The notes under the pieces are model-generated. The model worked only from the letters and a program-made list of their open reading frames with translations, searched no databases and was not told the origin of the DNA. Source: Acidimicrobiaceae bacterium (GTDB taxonomy: Bacteria > Actinomycetota > Acidimicrobiia > Acidimicrobiales > RAAP-2). From it: 47,955 nt of DNA. Below are positions 35,912 to 46,159 of the stretch, piece by piece. The stretch is taken from positions 1-47,955 of the forward strand of contig DAHUZT010000113.1 of the NCBI GenBank assembly GCA_027315005.1, in the 5' to 3' direction. Within the stretch, counting starts at the first letter, position 1. Each line of letters opens with the position of its first letter. A program made the translations under genes and the position numbers.

Positions 35912-37312
35912 ATGCCCCTCCACAAACGTGAGACCGTCCGCAATCAGATCCTCGACTCGGTGTACGCCGGTGACGACCTGATGGCGGCGCTCCAATCGTC
36001 CCGCTTCCCGGCGCAGGGGATGCGCCCCGAGGATGCCTACCAGGCGATCTCCGACGAGCTCCTGCTCGACGGCAACGCCCGCCAGAACCTGGCGACCTTC
36101 TGCCAGACCGGGGAGGAGGACGAGGTCCACCAGCTCATGGATCTCTCGATCAACAAGAACCTCATCGACAAGGACGAGTACCCGCAGACCGCCGAGCTCG
36201 AACGGCGGTGCGTCCAGATGCTCTCCGATTTGTGGCACGCCCCACAGGACGGTGAGGCCGTCGGTTGCTCGGCGATCGGTTCGTCCGAGGCTTGCATGCT
36301 CGGTGGCATGGCCGCCAAGTGGCGGTGGCGGGCGAAGCGCCTGGCGGCGGGCAAGCCCACCGACCGGCCCAACATGGTGTGTGGACCCGTCCAGGTGGTA
36401 TGGCACAAGTTCGCCCGGTACTGGGACATCGAGATGCGGGAGATCCCCATGGCGCCCGGTCGCTACTGCATGGACGTCGAGCAGATGCTTTCCCAGGTGG
36501 ACGAGAACACCGTCATGGTGGTGCCCACATTCGGAGTGACCTATACGGGTGCCTACGAGAACGTCTTCGATCTGGCGTCGGCCCTCGACACCTTGGCCGA
36601 CGACACGGGCTTGGACGTCGACATCCACGTGGACGGAGCCAGTGGGGCTTTTCTTGCACCGTTCTGTGCGCCGGAGCTGACTTGGGATTTCCGTATTCCA
36701 CGGGTGAAGTCGATCAGCGCCTCCGGACACAAGTTCGGACTGGCGCCGCTCGGCGTGGGATGGCTGCTCTTCCGCGACAAGGAGGAGCTACCGGACGACC
36801 TGGTCTTCCACGTGACCTACCTGGGTGGCGACATGCCCGTGTTCCAGCTCAACTTCTCGCGTCCGGCCGGACAGATCGTGGCCCAGTACTACGAATTCGT
36901 CCGGCTCGGACACCATGGGTACCAGCGGATCCACGATCTGTGCTACCAGACTGGTCGCTTCTTGGCCGAGGAGATCGTGAAGCTCGGCCCCTTCGAACTG
37001 CTCTGCGAGTCGGACCCGGTCACCGGCATTCCGACAGTGACGTGGCGGATCGAAGACGGTTCGGACCCCGGCTACTCGTTGTACGACCTGGCCGACCGGC
37101 TTCGAGTGCGCGGGTGGCAGGTCCCCGCCTACCCGCTCACCGGATCGGTGTCCGACGTGTCGGTCCAGCGCATCCTGGTGCGCCAAGGCGTCACCAAGGA
37201 CCTCGCCGCCCTTCTGCTCGAAGACATCGGCAAGTCGATCGTCCACTTCGACAAGCACCCGGTGTCGGTGGTGATGGCACCTAAGGAGGCCGGCGGGTTC
37301 GGTCACCTCTGA
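35912..37312 (+). CDS. gadB: Glutamate decarboxylase (GadB-type)
   Basis: This PLP enzyme converts glutamate to GABA and CO2, consuming a proton. The PLP lysine K274 is in [15 protein letters not shown], and the cofactor Asp241 is in [13 protein letters not shown]. The 466-residue length, the N-terminal block around [22 protein letters not shown], and [14 protein letters not shown] are characteristic of bacterial GAD alpha. No glutamate/GABA antiporter gene (gadC) is nearby, so an acid-resistance system is not shown; a GABA-shunt or osmotic role is equally possible. It starts 98 bases after the DUF2252 gene with AAAGGCGAG before it. Confidence 0.92.
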
Positions 37313-40651: not shown

Positions 40652-43600
40652 TCAGGGTCCGGGCGTCAGGCCGCTCGAATCGGCTTCGGTCCTGACCGAA
40701 GCGATCGGGGTCCGTGCCGGCGTCTCCTCATCGAGGGTCTCGATCGCCCGTTCAAGGTCACCGGCCACCGGGCTGTCGCCCTCTCGGTCGTCAATGCCAG
40801 GGCGGGTTTCCGACTTGGCCACCACCGAGCCGACGAACGCCTCTGTCTCCTGCTGGGCGGCGAGCACCCGCTTCTCGGCGCCCGAGGCCAGTAGACGACC
40901 CAGCACCGGAAGCTCCCACATCGACTCGGCCCGGAGGATGGCCATGATCACCGGGACCAGGTGCTCGGCCGTGTCGAAGACGACATAGCGCGGGAGCCAC
41001 TCGGGATCGTACTTGGCGTTGAACCGCCACAATGATTCCATCTGGACAAAATTCGAGAGGCGCTTGAGCGCCCAGCGCTCCGCCCGACCGAGGGTTCCGT
41101 CACCCTTCTCGCCCGAAAGGATCGACCGCATTGCGGCGAAGTTGAGGCTGAGACCGCTGAAGCCCTCTTGTTGGAGGTGTTCGAGGGTCGAGCAGAGGGC
41201 GAAATCGAGCAGGCCGTTCGGATGGTCTCCCGTGTCGCGTCTCATGAGATCCAGCGAATAGCCGTCGATTCCCTTGGCGGGCACGAACTGGCACATCGCC
41301 GCCACGGCACCACTTCTGTCTCTCACCACCGTCAGCAGAAGGCCGGTGTCTCTCGGATCGAAGATGCGACCGAGCATCATCGAGAACCCTCGTTCGTGCT
41401 CACCTCGCCGGCTCAGGCTCATCAGGTTGGTGAGCTCCTCGACCATCGCCGGATCGAGGTGGGCCGGATCGTGGAAGGTGGCGGTGTAGCCGTTCTTGTC
41501 TATCCGATTGTTTGCCTGACGGAGACCCTTCATTGATTTGCCGGCGAGAGAGAACACCTGGGCGTTGACCACTGCCTCGTCGCCCAGGTACATGTTGTGC
41601 ATGCCCGACTCGCGATAGATGGGGAGCCACTCCTCACCGGCACCCATGATGGCCGTGACCCAACCGTGATCGTCGGCGAACTTCCGGAAGGCGGCCCACG
41701 CCTGACCCCGCTCGTTCTCCGGTCCGATCGGATCGGGGGAGACCAGGCAGATCCCTCCATAGATGGCGTAGGCCACCAGACTGTCGCGATGGAAGAACCA
41801 GTGTTTGTCGGTCCGGAGGGAGAAGTAGTCGAGGGTCGAGCTGCCGTGTCTACGAACGATGTCCCGGGCTCGGAACTCGGCGGCACGGCCCGAGCTGAGG
41901 CGTCGATCGACTACCGGCCGGGTGAGTAGGAATAGCACCAGGCCGGCGATGGACAGGCCGAGGGCGAGCAGTGCGGGGGAGAGGAAGTCGTTGAGCCGTT
42001 TGGGTAGCGGCAGGGTGGTCACCCCCGCCAACCGTTCGGTGATGGCCCACAGTGTGGTCCACCAGGCGAGGTGTGGATGCCGGTGGGGGCCGACGTGGGT
42101 GAACAGCTCGACGAGGCTGGTCGTCGCCAGCACCAGACCGATGACGCCGGCGACCAGGGCGATCAGCGCGGAGCGGAGAGACGACCAGTCCGATGCCGCC
42201 TGGAAGTCCCTGCGATTGGCCAACAGGAGTGCCAAGACGGCAACCGTGAGCACCGACTCCTCCACGTCGGCCCCGGCCACCAGATGGAGGATGATCGAAG
42301 TGGCGAGGAGGAACACCGCCACCCTCCAGGCCCGTCGCTGTCCGCGAAGGATGCCCCGTCCCAGTGCGACCAGAGCCAGACCCGACATGGCGATCAAGGC
42401 CCCCGCCGCCTCGGTGGCTCGCAGTGGGAGGAACTCGAGCAGGAGGTGGAGGCGCGCCCGCAACGGAGGGGTGACTGCATCGAGCAGGTCGATGATCCCC
42501 GCTGCCAGGATGGCCAGCGCGGCCCACCGGCGCACCCGCCTCGTGCGTCGGTGGGCCAATCGGAGGTCGGGGGCGGGGGGCCACGAGCCCCCCACCGGGT
42601 ACGAGGCCACCAGCTCGGGCCGGGAGGATCGGCTGTTGACGCCGTCCCTTCGATCGAACAGTCGTTCGAGCAGGCTGGGGGAGTCGAGCGCCTGGTTGGC
42701 GAGTAGTAACCGCACGTGGAGGTCGGCGCCGGTCTCGAGCTCGACCCAGCTGACCCGTCGGCTGTGGACGAACACCGGTGGGAGACCCAGACGCCCGGAG
42801 TGTTCCTCGACCACCTCGGCGGTGGCCCCGACGTTGGCGTAGAAGCCGATGCCCAGGTTGGTCAACTCCGATTGGAAGGTTGCCGCCGTGATCAGCCCGG
42901 AATGGCCGCGCCCGACCAGTCGCCGGGCCGCGTCGCGCGCCCGGTCGTTGGCGCCGGATTCGAGCCGCACCCTATCAAGGGACCCACCGCCGAGTATCGA
43001 CCAAAGCCTCCGGCTGAGGATCCCGAGCACGATGGCCAGGACGCCGAGGACGACCAGGGCCACGAGGGCGGCCACCGCCAGCTGGTCACCGGCGTCTGCG
43101 GCTCGGGCGTGGCGGATCGCCCTGGCCGGAAGGCCTGAGCCCAGATGGACGAGCACCCAGGGGGTGACCGCGACCCGCAGCAGACCGGCTACGAGGAAGG
43201 GCACGAGGAGCCACCAGGCGTAGCGGCCGAGTCGCCGGTACAGCGTGCGCGAAACGACGAACCGCGACAACGAGGACGGATCGCTCAGCCTGGTCAGCCC
43301 CTCCAGCCACGGAGCGCCGGTGGTCGACTGGCGGGCGAACGAGCTCCACCTGTTGCCAGCCACAGAGGGCCCGATGGCCCCGGGCTTGGCATCGGCTTCG
43401 GGGTCGGGGCCGGACCCGGATGGCTCACACCCGGCGGCGTAGGCGTGCTCTCCGGGCTCGACACGCACCACCCGATCACCGTTTGTCGTGTGAAGGTGCA
43501 GATCGATCGGACCTCGATGCTCGAAACCATCTCTGGCCATCGAGGCGAGCGCGCCGTTGTCTGAGTCGATCCCCGGCTCGTGCGTACCTGTCTGACGGAT

Positions 43601-43891
43601 CACCCGGCGATCGCGCCCCGATGCGAAGCGGGCGAAGGCCTCCCCGAGGGTCCGGTGAGCTTCCATCGATCGCGAGCATCCGTCACCTGGCGGGCCCTTC
43701 GCCGGGTGACTTTCGGACGTGAGGTCGAAGAGGTTCCCGGCGATGACCAGAATCCCCGGACCGTCCCAGGTGTCGAGGGTCCGGGCCAGTTCGGTGCTGA
43801 CGGCGATGGACGACGGCGAGGCGTCCGGAGTGAGCAAGAGGTCGCTCACCACCATGACCCGCCGGCCGATCGGTACGTCGACGGTGGTCAC
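40652..43891 (-). CDS. Fusion of a degenerate calcineurin-like phosphoesterase domain with an MprF/LysX-like aminoacyl-phosphatidylglycerol synthase (DUF2156)
   Basis: The 1079-residue membrane protein has three parts. Residues about 10-200 align with calcineurin-like phosphoesterases, but each metal motif is altered: D-x-H is DLL (D17-L19), GDxxD is GNLFD (about 52-56), GNHD is GTHE, and the later GH is GE. The middle (about 215-670) contains about eight membrane helices and a soluble segment (HSGRLGLPPVFVHSRRVSWVE region). Residues about 690-1000 are DUF2156, with YFSLRTDKHWFFHRDSLVAY, VSPDPIGP and GYSLDLMRRDTGDHPNGLLDFAL, the domain that transfers lysine or alanine from tRNA to phosphatidylglycerol. 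The GTG at 43891 starts just before the phosphoesterase domain; GTG 44020 is possible. The frame is open to 45145 but overlaps acs. Confidence 0.8.
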   Translation of the reverse strand: MTTVDVPIGRRVMVVSDLLLTPDASPSSIAVSTELARTLDTWDGPGILVIAGNLFDLTSESHPAKGPPGDGCSRSMEAHRTLGEAFARFASGRDRRVIRQTGTHEPGIDSDNGALASMARDGFEHRGPIDLHLHTTNGDRVVRVEPGEHAYAAGCEPSGSGPDPEADAKPGAIGPSVAGNRWSSFARQSTTGAPWLEGLTRLSDPSSLSRFVVSRTLYRRLGRYAWWLLVPFLVAGLLRVAVTPWVLVHLGSGLPARAIRHARAADAGDQLAVAALVALVVLGVLAIVLGILSRRLWSILGGGSLDRVRLESGANDRARDAARRLVGRGHSGLITAATFQSELTNLGIGFYANVGATAEVVEEHSGRLGLPPVFVHSRRVSWVELETGADLHVRLLLANQALDSPSLLERLFDRRDGVNSRSSRPELVASYPVGGSWPPAPDLRLAHRRTRRVRRWAALAILAAGIIDLLDAVTPPLRARLHLLLEFLPLRATEAAGALIAMSGLALVALGRGILRGQRRAWRVAVFLLATSIILHLVAGADVEESVLTVAVLALLLANRRDFQAASDWSSLRSALIALVAGVIGLVLATTSLVELFTHVGPHRHPHLAWWTTLWAITERLAGVTTLPLPKRLNDFLSPALLALGLSIAGLVLFLLTRPVVDRRLSSGRAAEFRARDIVRRHGSSTLDYFSLRTDKHWFFHRDSLVAYAIYGGICLVSPDPIGPENERGQAWAAFRKFADDHGWVTAIMGAGEEWLPIYRESGMHNMYLGDEAVVNAQVFSLAGKSMKGLRQANNRIDKNGYTATFHDPAHLDPAMVEELTNLMSLSRRGEHERGFSMMLGRIFDPRDTGLLLTVVRDRSGAVAAMCQFVPAKGIDGYSLDLMRRDTGDHPNGLLDFALCSTLEHLQQEGFSGLSLNFAAMRSILSGEKGDGTLGRAERWALKRLSNFVQMESLWRFNAKYDPEWLPRYVVFDTAEHLVPVIMAILRAESMWELPVLGRLLASGAEKRVLAAQQETEAFVGSVVAKSETRPGIDDREGDSPVAGDLERAIETLDEETPARTPIASVRTEADSSGLTPGP

Positions 43892-44119
43892 ACCCGGCTC
43901 GCACTGTGGCGGGTCCCCGGGCGGAGGGGACGTCGGGTGCGGTCCCGACCAGCTCCTCGAGTGGTCGGCACCGCCTTCCTTGGGACCCGCCTCTTCTGGC
44001 GGCGACGAAGTCGCGCTCACGAACAGCCCATGGTACGGCCTCAACGTCGTACGGTGTCGCCAGTAGGCTGACCAGCCGGGTCGGTACCTCCGGAACCGGC
44101 AGGGAGCAAGGAGCGAGGA

Positions 44120-46159
44120 ATGCCTGACCAACCCCGGAACGGTCCTGGCGGGGCACAGCCGTCCCAGCTCGGGCCCGCCATCGAGGACTACTTCTCCGAG
44201 GACCGCCGGTTCCATCCATCCCCGCAGTTCGTCGACCGGGCGGTGCTCGCTGATCCGAGGGTCTACGAGCGAGCCGCTCGCGATCCCGAGCGGTTCTGGG
44301 CGGAGCAGGCCGGGGATCTCGACTGGTACAGGCCCTGGGACACCGTTCTCGAATGGAACCTGCCCTTCGCCCGCTGGTTCGTTGGTGGCTCCCTCAACGT
44401 CTCGTTCAACTGCGTCGACCGGCACGTGGCCGCCGGCCGCGGTGACCGGGTGGCCTACCACTGGGAAGGTGAACCGGGAGATACCCGCACGGTCACCTAC
44501 ACCGAGCTGTTGGAGCAGGTCTCGAAATTCGCCAACGTGCTCCACGGGCTCGGGGTCACCAAGGGTGACCGAGTCGCCATCTACATGCCCATGATCCCCG
44601 AGCTGCCGGTCACCATGCTGGCCTGCGCCCGCATCGGTGCCGTCCATTCGGTCGTCTTCGGTGGATTCTCGCCCGATGCACTGCGCGACCGCATCGTCGA
44701 TGCTCGGTCCCGGGTGGTGGTGACCGCCGACGGTGGCTGGCGGCGTGGCGTACCCGTTGTGCTCAAGGGGAACGTCGACCAGGCGGTGGCCGAAGCCGGT
44801 TGCGTGGAGCATGTCGTCGTCGCCCGTCGGATCGGGGCCCCGGAGGGGTCCGCCGCTGCCCCGATGACCGAAGGACGCGACCATTGGTGGCACGAACTGA
44901 TGAGTGGTGAGGACCCCGCCGCGGGAGGCGAGCCTGACGCCGTCTGCGAGCCCGAGCCGATGGATGCCGAAGACCTTCTCTTCCTGCTCTACACGTCGGG
45001 CACCACGGCTGCCCCCAAAGGCATCATGCACACCACGGGCGGGTACCTCACCCAGGTCTCCTTCACCCACCGGGCGGTGTTCGACCTCCATCCCGAATCC
45101 GATGTCTACTGGTGCGCGGCCGACATCGGATGGGTCACTGGCCACAGCTACATCGTCTACGGACCCCTCGCCAATGGCGCCACGTCGGTCCTGTATGAGG
45201 GAACGCCCGACTATCCCGACCGGGATCGATGGTGGTCAGTGATCGAGCGCTACGGGGTGACCATTCTGTACGCCGCGCCGACCGCCATCCGGACGTTCAT
45301 GAAGTGGGGCACCGACTACCCCGCGCGGCACGATCTGAGCACGCTCCGGGTGCTCGGGTCGGTGGGCGAGCCGATCAACCCAGAGGCATGGATGTGGTAT
45401 CACGCGCACATCGGCGGAGGTCGTTGTCCGGTCGTGGACACGTGGTGGCAGACGGAGACCGGCGCCATCATGATCTCACCGCTGCCCGGGCTCACGACGA
45501 CGAAACCCGGGTCGGCCACGTTCCCGCTCCCCGGTATCGAGGCCGAGGTCGTCGATGACGCCGGAAACCGGGTGGAGCGTGGCGGCGGTTACCTCACGCT
45601 CACCGCACCTTGGCCGTCCATGCTGAGAGGGATCTACGGCGATCCGGAACGCTACCGCGAAGTCTACTGGAGCCGGTTTGACGGTAGGTACTTCGCCGGG
45701 GACGGTGCCAAAGTCGACGACGAGGGTTATCTTTGGCTGCTCGGTCGGGTCGATGACGTCATGAACATCTCCGGCCACCGGATATCCACTACCGAGGTCG
45801 AGTCCGCTCTCGTCGATCATCCGGCGGTGGCCGAGGCCGCGGTTGTCGGGGCCGATGACCCCACGACCGGTCAGGCCATCGTGGCATTCGTGACCGCGCG
45901 TGGTGACGCGGGGCCTACGGATGAGGCACTCGGACGGGCACTGCGTGAGCACGTTTCCAAGCGCATCGGCCCGATCGCCCGTCCGCGGAACGTGATCTTC
46001 ACCGGTGAGCTGCCGAAGACGCGAAGTGGCAAGATCATGCGGCGTCTGCTCCGTGACGTGGCCAATGGTCGCCGTCTCGGTGATACCACGACACTCGCCG
46101 ATCCCGCAGTCGTGGAGGAGATCCGGGCACTCGCCGCCGAAGCGCCTGGAGAAGAGTGA
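44120..46159 (+). CDS. acs: AMP-forming acetyl-CoA synthetase (Acs)
   Basis: Acs makes acetyl-CoA from acetate, ATP and CoA. The 679-residue length and blocks match: SFNCVDRH, AIYMPMIPELPVTMLACARIGAVHSVVFGGFSPDAL, DIGWVTGHSYIVYGPL, VDTWWQTETGAIMISPLPG, and GRVDDVMNISGHRISTTEVES. The adenylation lysine is K638 in TRSGKIMRR, the residue acetylated for control in other bacteria. The phosphate loop reads YTSGTTAAPKGI, with Ala replacing the usual Gly after TT. A propionate-specific form cannot be excluded. The ATG has GAGCGAGG upstream. It is divergent from the MprF fusion and overlaps the HAD gene (GTGA). Confidence 0.93.
   Translation: MPDQPRNGPGGAQPSQLGPAIEDYFSEDRRFHPSPQFVDRAVLADPRVYERAARDPERFWAEQAGDLDWYRPWDTVLEWNLPFARWFVGGSLNVSFNCVDRHVAAGRGDRVAYHWEGEPGDTRTVTYTELLEQVSKFANVLHGLGVTKGDRVAIYMPMIPELPVTMLACARIGAVHSVVFGGFSPDALRDRIVDARSRVVVTADGGWRRGVPVVLKGNVDQAVAEAGCVEHVVVARRIGAPEGSAAAPMTEGRDHWWHELMSGEDPAAGGEPDAVCEPEPMDAEDLLFLLYTSGTTAAPKGIMHTTGGYLTQVSFTHRAVFDLHPESDVYWCAADIGWVTGHSYIVYGPLANGATSVLYEGTPDYPDRDRWWSVIERYGVTILYAAPTAIRTFMKWGTDYPARHDLSTLRVLGSVGEPINPEAWMWYHAHIGGGRCPVVDTWWQTETGAIMISPLPGLTTTKPGSATFPLPGIEAEVVDDAGNRVERGGGYLTLTAPWPSMLRGIYGDPERYREVYWSRFDGRYFAGDGAKVDDEGYLWLLGRVDDVMNISGHRISTTEVESALVDHPAVAEAAVVGADDPTTGQAIVAFVTARGDAGPTDEALGRALREHVSKRIGPIARPRNVIFTGELPKTRSGKIMRRLLRDVANGRRLGDTTTLADPAVVEEIRALAAEAPGEE

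Follow-up and report, generated by a model that had tools for sequence, protein, structure and literature searches.

Aminoacyl-lipid synthases of the MprF/LysX type are known with two kinds of partner domain: MprF, a bifunctional flippase-synthase of lysyl- and alanyl-phosphatidylglycerol (LysPG/AlaPG), has an N-terminal flippase half, and LysX has a C-terminal LysRS domain. In the consulted part of PMC10580965, LysX of the Corynebacteriales, a homolog of MprF, is described as having six predicted membrane helices and a GNAT-like transferase, and the product of actinobacterial LysX is given as lysyl-diacylglycerol. Here we describe a gene of an Acidimicrobiaceae bacterium (contig DAHUZT010000113.1, assembly GCA_027315005.1), located on the minus strand of the analyzed 47,955-nucleotide stretch (the window). 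Its product, the window protein, contains a synthase half homologous to that of MprF and, like LysX/AlaDAGS of the Corynebacteriales, six helices and a GNAT-like transferase (PMC10580965, consulted part), but lacks LysRS and carries an N-terminal pseudo-phosphoesterase, whose phosphoesterase-hairpin module takes the place of the MprF flippase.

In our preferred reading, to which we assign a probability of roughly 0.5, the gene encodes an aminoacyl-lipid synthase of the MprF/LysX type that incorporates a pseudo-phosphoesterase; the latter probably serves as a membrane- or lipid-binding module without catalytic activity. Six membrane helices and a cytosolic tandem-GNAT domain would form a synthase with neither an MprF flippase nor LysRS, moving an amino acid from aminoacyl-tRNA to a membrane glycerolipid; the acceptor may be phosphatidylglycerol or diacylglycerol, because actinobacterial LysX makes lysyl-diacylglycerol. 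The N-terminal half would be a pseudoenzyme derived from a membrane-embedded calcineurin phosphoesterase resembling LpxH (UDP-2,3-diacylglucosamine diphosphatase). The gene and its predicted parts are:

40652-43891, minus strand: complete fusion gene, 1079 amino acids, GTG start
43412-43888, minus strand: pseudo-phosphoesterase, first half, residues 2-160, with motifs I-IV (alignments, AlphaFold2 model)
42992-43252, minus strand: two-helix membrane hairpin within the phosphoesterase fold, residues 214-300, opening with a conserved SRxxYR
42617-42976, minus strand: pseudo-phosphoesterase, second half, residues 306-425 (alignment, AlphaFold2 model)
41921-42565, minus strand: six-helix membrane region of the synthase, residues 443-657, overlapping PF16995
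40979-41860, minus strand: LPG_synthase_C/DUF2156 tandem GNAT domain, residues 678-971 (PF09924, solved structures)

The gene occupies a single stop-free frame from the GTG at 43891 to the stop at 40652. An earlier note on this DNA had placed a phosphoesterase-like domain, membrane helices and DUF2156 in one chain, and this architecture recurs within a single open reading frame: 14 close relatives, at 66-73% identity, have it, and so do many more distant proteins, among them one of a single-contig genome (L023 of genome G014). The closest relatives carrying a name come from metagenome-assembled Acidimicrobiales/Acidimicrobiaceae. That two genes were taken as one, or that a frameshift or assembly artefact joined them, has a negligible probability: one relative (L159 of G756) does have the fusion in two frames (646 and 408 amino acids; an assembly error or a real break), but 99 fused proteins from many assemblies have it in one, and since this recurrence extends to a single-contig genome, we regard such an artefact as excluded.

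The phosphoesterase domain comprises residues ~1-425 and is interrupted by the membrane hairpin (~214-300). The earlier note had ended it at residue 210, which the alignment (window protein, 37 fused relatives and unfused homologues) and the AlphaFold2 model both contradict, as the domain resumes after the hairpin. Taken alone, the window N-domain is not callable as a phosphoesterase, because Pfam and NCBIfam searches gave no phosphoesterase match (Pfam is blank over the first 440 residues); the assignment holds through intact relatives, to which the domain is homologous over its full length. The PF00149 gathering score (21.5 bits) was passed by all six intact domains tested (L020, 28.4; L065, 27.6; L069, 26.4; L075, 44.4; L064, 32.4; L061, 30.5 bits), whereas in the fused set of 38 proteins L020 alone matched PF00149 at all; identity to six intact relatives outside the motifs is 36-42%. 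The AlphaFold2 model of residues 2-440 (mean predicted local distance difference test score, pLDDT, 67.5; core blocks mostly 70-93) has calcineurin-like strands and helices on either side of the hairpin. Searched against the PDB with Foldseek, this model matched LpxH first (6.5e-4), with Mre11, GpdQ, Rv0805, DNA polymerase B subunits, Vps29 and GAP50 among the lower matches. LpxH was also the top, though weak, match of a profile of nine intact N-domains against PDB sequences (0.0038), and the nearest NCBIfam model of intact L020 (2.6e-5; 23.5 bits, below the cut-off of 134); a profile of 38 mostly decayed N-domains had no meaningful match among PDB sequences. On alignment and model, the window N-domain is a predicted pseudoenzyme sharing the calcineurin-like fold and its descent. 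No second member of this family was found in the genome of the window protein.

The common ground with LpxH is the fold. According to the consulted part of PMC6286764, the P. aeruginosa enzyme has the ligands D8, H10, D41, N79, H114, H195 and H197, a helical cap inserted in the fold binds the acyl chains of its lipid, and R80, beside N79, binds the lipid phosphate. Judged by motif order, the window hairpin, lying between motifs IV and V, would occupy the same interval as this lipid-binding cap. The insert is, however, a transmembrane hairpin instead of a helical cap, and the catalytic ligands are lost; the lipid A pathway is not implied.

Five motifs characterize the intact relatives (SDxH, GD, GNHD, VEHG and, after the hairpin, GHTH). 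Their counterparts in the window protein are SDLLL, GNLFD, GTHEP, VEPG and AATF, located as follows:

43832-43849, minus strand: motif I, VSDLLL (intact SDxH), D17 kept, H19L
43724-43744, minus strand: motif II, IAGNLFD (intact GD), D53N
43574-43591, minus strand: motif III, TGTHEP (intact GNHD), N103T, H104 kept
43445-43465, minus strand: motif IV, RVEPGEH (intact VEHG), H146P
42866-42895, minus strand: motif V, LITAATFQSE (intact GHTH), H337A and H339F (AATF is 336-339)

Of seven metal ligands (D-H, D, N, H, H-H), the window protein retains one, D17, and of eight active-site residues two, D17 and H104. The substitution of the metal-ligand motifs proposed earlier therefore stands after realignment, with six of the seven ligands gone, but "GE" (147-148) was mistaken for the fourth motif: it adjoins the real one, whose ligand is the His of VEHG, here P146, and the fifth motif lay beyond the boundary assumed. 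Compared with actinobacterial relatives that possess all five motifs, the window domain is decayed, and that it is catalytically dead is well supported by these alignments. That the domain remains an active phosphoesterase using a single metal or another unusual site, in favour of which one could cite the remaining D17 and H104 and the frequent Asn at position 53 (in place of the bridging Asp in 59 of 93 decayed fusions), is very improbable: the lost ligands include the His of motif IV and both His of motif V, 63 of the 93 decayed fusions retain at most one of the seven ligands, and in LpxH the replacement of single ligands by Ala lowers activity by 3-5 orders of magnitude (PMC6286764, consulted part).

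The fusion is more widespread than the earlier note knew. We surveyed 198 genomes of the class with the full-length window protein, which was matched over some part in 48, and 298 genomes of the order with an N-domain profile, which was matched in 88. Among 81 of the latter that were read (all except G646, G670, G685, G757, G765, G772 and G773), the two halves are fused in one frame in 76 and in two frames in one (L159), cut by a contig end in three (L117, L128 and L150), and truly unfused in one, the single-contig genome G110. Altogether, 121 non-identical N-domains were collected, 99 of them fused; of these, five keep all eight active-site residues (L020, L165, L176, L183 and L184), one keeps seven (L167), and 93 keep five or fewer and are termed decayed. 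In this count, an alignment gap at any of the eight residues was scored as lacking the residue (this applies to L003, L004, L023, L154 and L155), and L151-L155 are poorly aligned at the N-terminus. In contrast, all 18 unfused relatives with a complete gene have eight of eight (including L078, L080 and L085).

The unfused proteins belong to an unnamed family of free-standing actinobacterial membrane metallophosphoesterases of ~450-550 amino acids (e.g., L065, L069, L075 and L160), which share the split domain and hairpin with the window protein but have an intact active site. No DUF2156 gene was found in 10 of 11 genomes checked that encode a free-standing phosphoesterase; in a PF09924 search of 20 genomes, the 10 without a match (G110, G243, G224, G210 and six of family f57) all have unfused phosphoesterases, and G237 has one plus a separate DUF2156. 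Most such genomes lacking DUF2156, the activity of the unfused enzymes would be independent of aminoacylated lipids made by this family. L045, considered as an unfused synthase, was dropped, since it begins at a contig end.

Phylogenetic trees were built without the motif columns, and L149, L150, L154 and L155 were omitted from the large tree as too partial. The large decayed group holding the window protein is one clade (Shimodaira-Hasegawa-like approximate likelihood ratio test, SH-aLRT, 93 with 85 rows; support 90/89 with 30 rows). Within a fused clade (support 99/97), intact L176 and L160 lie among decayed L016/L017, L122 and L006, and parsimony on a 51-row tree counts five changes between intact (seven or eight of eight) and decayed; in these trees several basal forks are not resolved, the bootstrap did not converge, and L160 carries a warning for unusual composition. 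This placement suggests that the active site was lost more than once after fusion, so that the dead half has probably been retained for another job. L160 itself (G110:C1:4522051-4526256) is an unfused intact phosphoesterase nested among fusions, and a DUF2156 gene was not found in its single-contig genome; it is likely a secondary split from a fusion, in which the synthase half was lost and the intact phosphoesterase kept.

Selection on the retained domain was estimated from the ratio of nonsynonymous to synonymous substitution rates (dN/dS) in 10 pairs of the window protein's clade, by a simple counting method and with high dS in some pairs. The values are 0.07-0.28 for the first and 0.09-0.59 for the second half of the phosphoesterase (below 0.35 in all but one pair), 0.08-0.45 for the linker before the hairpin, 0.07-0.38 for the hairpin, 0.14-0.26 for the six-helix region and 0.05-0.15 for the GNAT domain. 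By these values, the dead phosphoesterase domain is under purifying selection, less tightly than the GNAT domain.

The preferred reading has two close rivals. In the first, the phosphoesterase would have become useless after fusion, with fold and hairpin kept as structural ballast for insertion and stability of the synthase. In its favour, the most conserved N-domain positions of the decayed fusions are largely fold Gly and Pro, together with the hairpin-base residues S214, R215, Y218 and R219 (each in 88-89 of 93), and the catalytic positions are the freest: in 83 decayed fusions, mean entropy is 2.33 bits at ligand positions, 2.08 over the domain and 1.25 at ligand neighbours, and in nine intact or near-intact proteins the ligand positions are nearly invariant (0.06). 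Against ballast, DUF2156 relatives without the N-domain occur in G146, G036, G131, G178, G003 and G096 (L024-L028 and L030; frames of 606-798 amino acids); their match to the window protein begins only near residue 441, and the same is true of L047 and L048. Such synthases can thus exist without that domain, and the fusion is nonetheless kept in one frame in 76 of the 81 order genomes read. We consider the ballast explanation unlikely. The second rival, close as well and at best tentative, is a ligand sensor, in which the dead pocket would bind a phosphorylated metabolite or lipid and switch the synthase on or off; the earlier note had proposed such a sensor as a possible control of phosphatidylglycerol aminoacylation. 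It gains from the window protein's own 15-protein clade, where the replacements at the motif positions hardly vary (mean entropy 0.19 vs. 0.75 for the domain), and from the Arg at position 104 in 35 of 93 decayed fusions, given the phosphate-binding R80 of LpxH (PMC6286764, consulted part). Residue 104 of the window protein is His, however, and across the wider decayed set the freedom of the ligand positions, above the domain average, does not suggest one conserved pocket.

The motifs of the synthase half are intact. PF09924 (LPG_synthase_C) matches residues 678-971 (7.3e-68; 229.2 bits vs. a cut-off of 27.5), the membrane region PF16995 matches residues 449-612, and the half aligns along its length with solved MprF structures (9w50, 1.3e-35; 4v34, 5.8e-25 with the GNAT part; also 4v36 and 7duw). 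The transferase motifs LDLMR, K-LR-NR and NAK-P-W-PRY, common to the solved synthases, are present. For the P. aeruginosa synthase, we take the catalytic numbering to be D765 and R768. Among 96 fusions (L020, L148 and L149, with a cut C domain, and L161, the same record as L043, being omitted), R791, D881, R884, P963, W965 and R968 are invariant, K960 is found in 94 and R796 in 93. The claim of an intact MprF/LysX-type DUF2156 part is borne out by this invariance and the PF09924 match, and the synthase half is presumably catalytically active. The consulted part of PMC11630815 names synthase positions 684 and 742, whose counted equivalents in the window protein are R796 and R857, a mapping that is uncertain, as the paper prints S684. 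The partner domains of the described systems were not found: NCBIfam bifunc_MprF covers only profile positions 323-837 (259 bits vs. 600), which leaves no MprF flippase match; LysRS has no Pfam match, and PRK02983 (residues 447-1019, 9.8e-92), at 308.6 bits far under its cut-off of 742, aligned only to position 597 of 1102. In the genome of the window protein (3.06 Mb, 92.96% complete), this gene is the only DUF2156 gene found. A mirror case is formed by L183 and L184 (G282 and G370, of another class), with eight of eight phosphoesterase residues and an eroded synthase (LDQVR; R796 and K960 lost); as a search of 24 genomes of that class added no member to these two, no rule is claimed.

Hydropathy places helices near residues 220-252, 262-303, 452-479, 490-517, 520-545, 540-559, 568-602 and 633-663; two weak peaks in the GNAT domain (704-723 and 968-997) were not counted. 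The total of about eight given earlier stands, although not as one block: two helices lie inside the phosphoesterase and six belong to the synthase. Loops rich in Lys and Arg follow the hairpin and occur at 516-523 and 658-704. In agreement with the positive-inside rule, both phosphoesterase halves, the GNAT domain and the N-terminus are predicted to be cytosolic.

Under the preferred reading of a synthase with a built-in pseudo-phosphoesterase, the phosphoesterase halves and the GNAT domain, all cytosolic, would be connected through 2 + 6 membrane helices, and the phosphoesterase fold, hydrolysing nothing now, would be kept, seated on the inner face of the membrane by way of its hairpin. The dead module would most likely dock or orient the synthase and/or hold lipid in the former substrate pocket. 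Going beyond the computed architecture, homology, ligand loss, purifying selection, intact synthase motifs and repeated loss among fusions, we infer that it may bind lipid or the GNAT domain. In a more specific version, which we think improbable, a fused lipid phosphoesterase would have turned repeatedly into a dead lipid-presenting subunit, the hairpin (in place of the LpxH cap) and the emptied pocket capturing the acceptor glycerolipid and handing it to the GNAT domain; equally doubtful, as part of that version, is that the pseudoenzyme takes over from the flippase or LysRS that accompanies other MprF-type synthases. In the same version, the phosphoesterase of the ancestral intact fusion may have made the acceptor, for instance by converting phosphatidylglycerophosphate to phosphatidylglycerol or phosphatidate to diacylglycerol.

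Several observations weigh against the preferred reading. The contrast between fused and unfused proteins is in part shared descent, because most unfused rows group at the base of the tree, and evolution is slower in the GNAT domain than in the phosphoesterase halves. Within the GNAT domain, H701 and R857 of the window protein are each found in just 30 of 96 fusions. With the motifs set aside, the window protein shares only 21-23% identity with L075 and L069, which are distant unfused proteins. The AlphaFold2 alignment of the N-domain held 17 sequences and the five models spread widely (mean pLDDT 48.8-67.5); just three Foldseek matches had E < 0.001, and the LpxH matches have low TM-scores (0.26-0.28, normalized by query length), as expected with a long hairpin inside the query model. 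No docking between the phosphoesterase and synthase halves is visible in the full-length AlphaFold model, and because its pLDDT is 53.6, no inter-domain contact is claimed.

Calcineurin-fold proteins with structural roles include DNA polymerase B subunits, Vps29 and Plasmodium GAP50, to whose non-catalytic use of the fold that of the window N-domain may be likened. To our knowledge, none of this kind is joined to a lipid aminoacyltransferase. Among the papers listed in searches of the open-access literature, with subscription papers outside its coverage, none joins MprF/DUF2156 to a metallophosphoesterase, in line with the earlier note, which knew of no such system.

The true start of the fusion gene may be a GTG at 44020, because the residues EPG directly upstream of 43891 are conserved in many close relatives:

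43892-44020, minus strand: candidate N-terminal extension, 43 codons from GTG 44020 (129 bases upstream), terminal residues EPG

Divergently upstream lies an acetyl-CoA synthetase gene (44120-46159, plus strand), found in the same arrangement in 12 of 16 relatives examined (L031-L035, L038-L042, L044 and L046), and a glutamate decarboxylase gene (35912-37312, plus strand; TIGR01788, 611.5 bits vs. a cut-off of 380.4) is located a few genes from the fusion. Nothing in the neighbourhoods of these 16 relatives accounts for the function of the fusion.

The fusion is real, and a pseudo-phosphoesterase would be a third type of partner for an MprF-type synthase, beside the flippase and LysRS. The domains form a natural gradation, some intact, some half-decayed and some dead, which lets one ask why a fused enzyme domain loses catalysis yet stays. 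The finding also points to an uncharacterised actinobacterial family of intact membrane phosphoesterases, and acidimicrobial membranes are worth checking for aminoacylated lipids.

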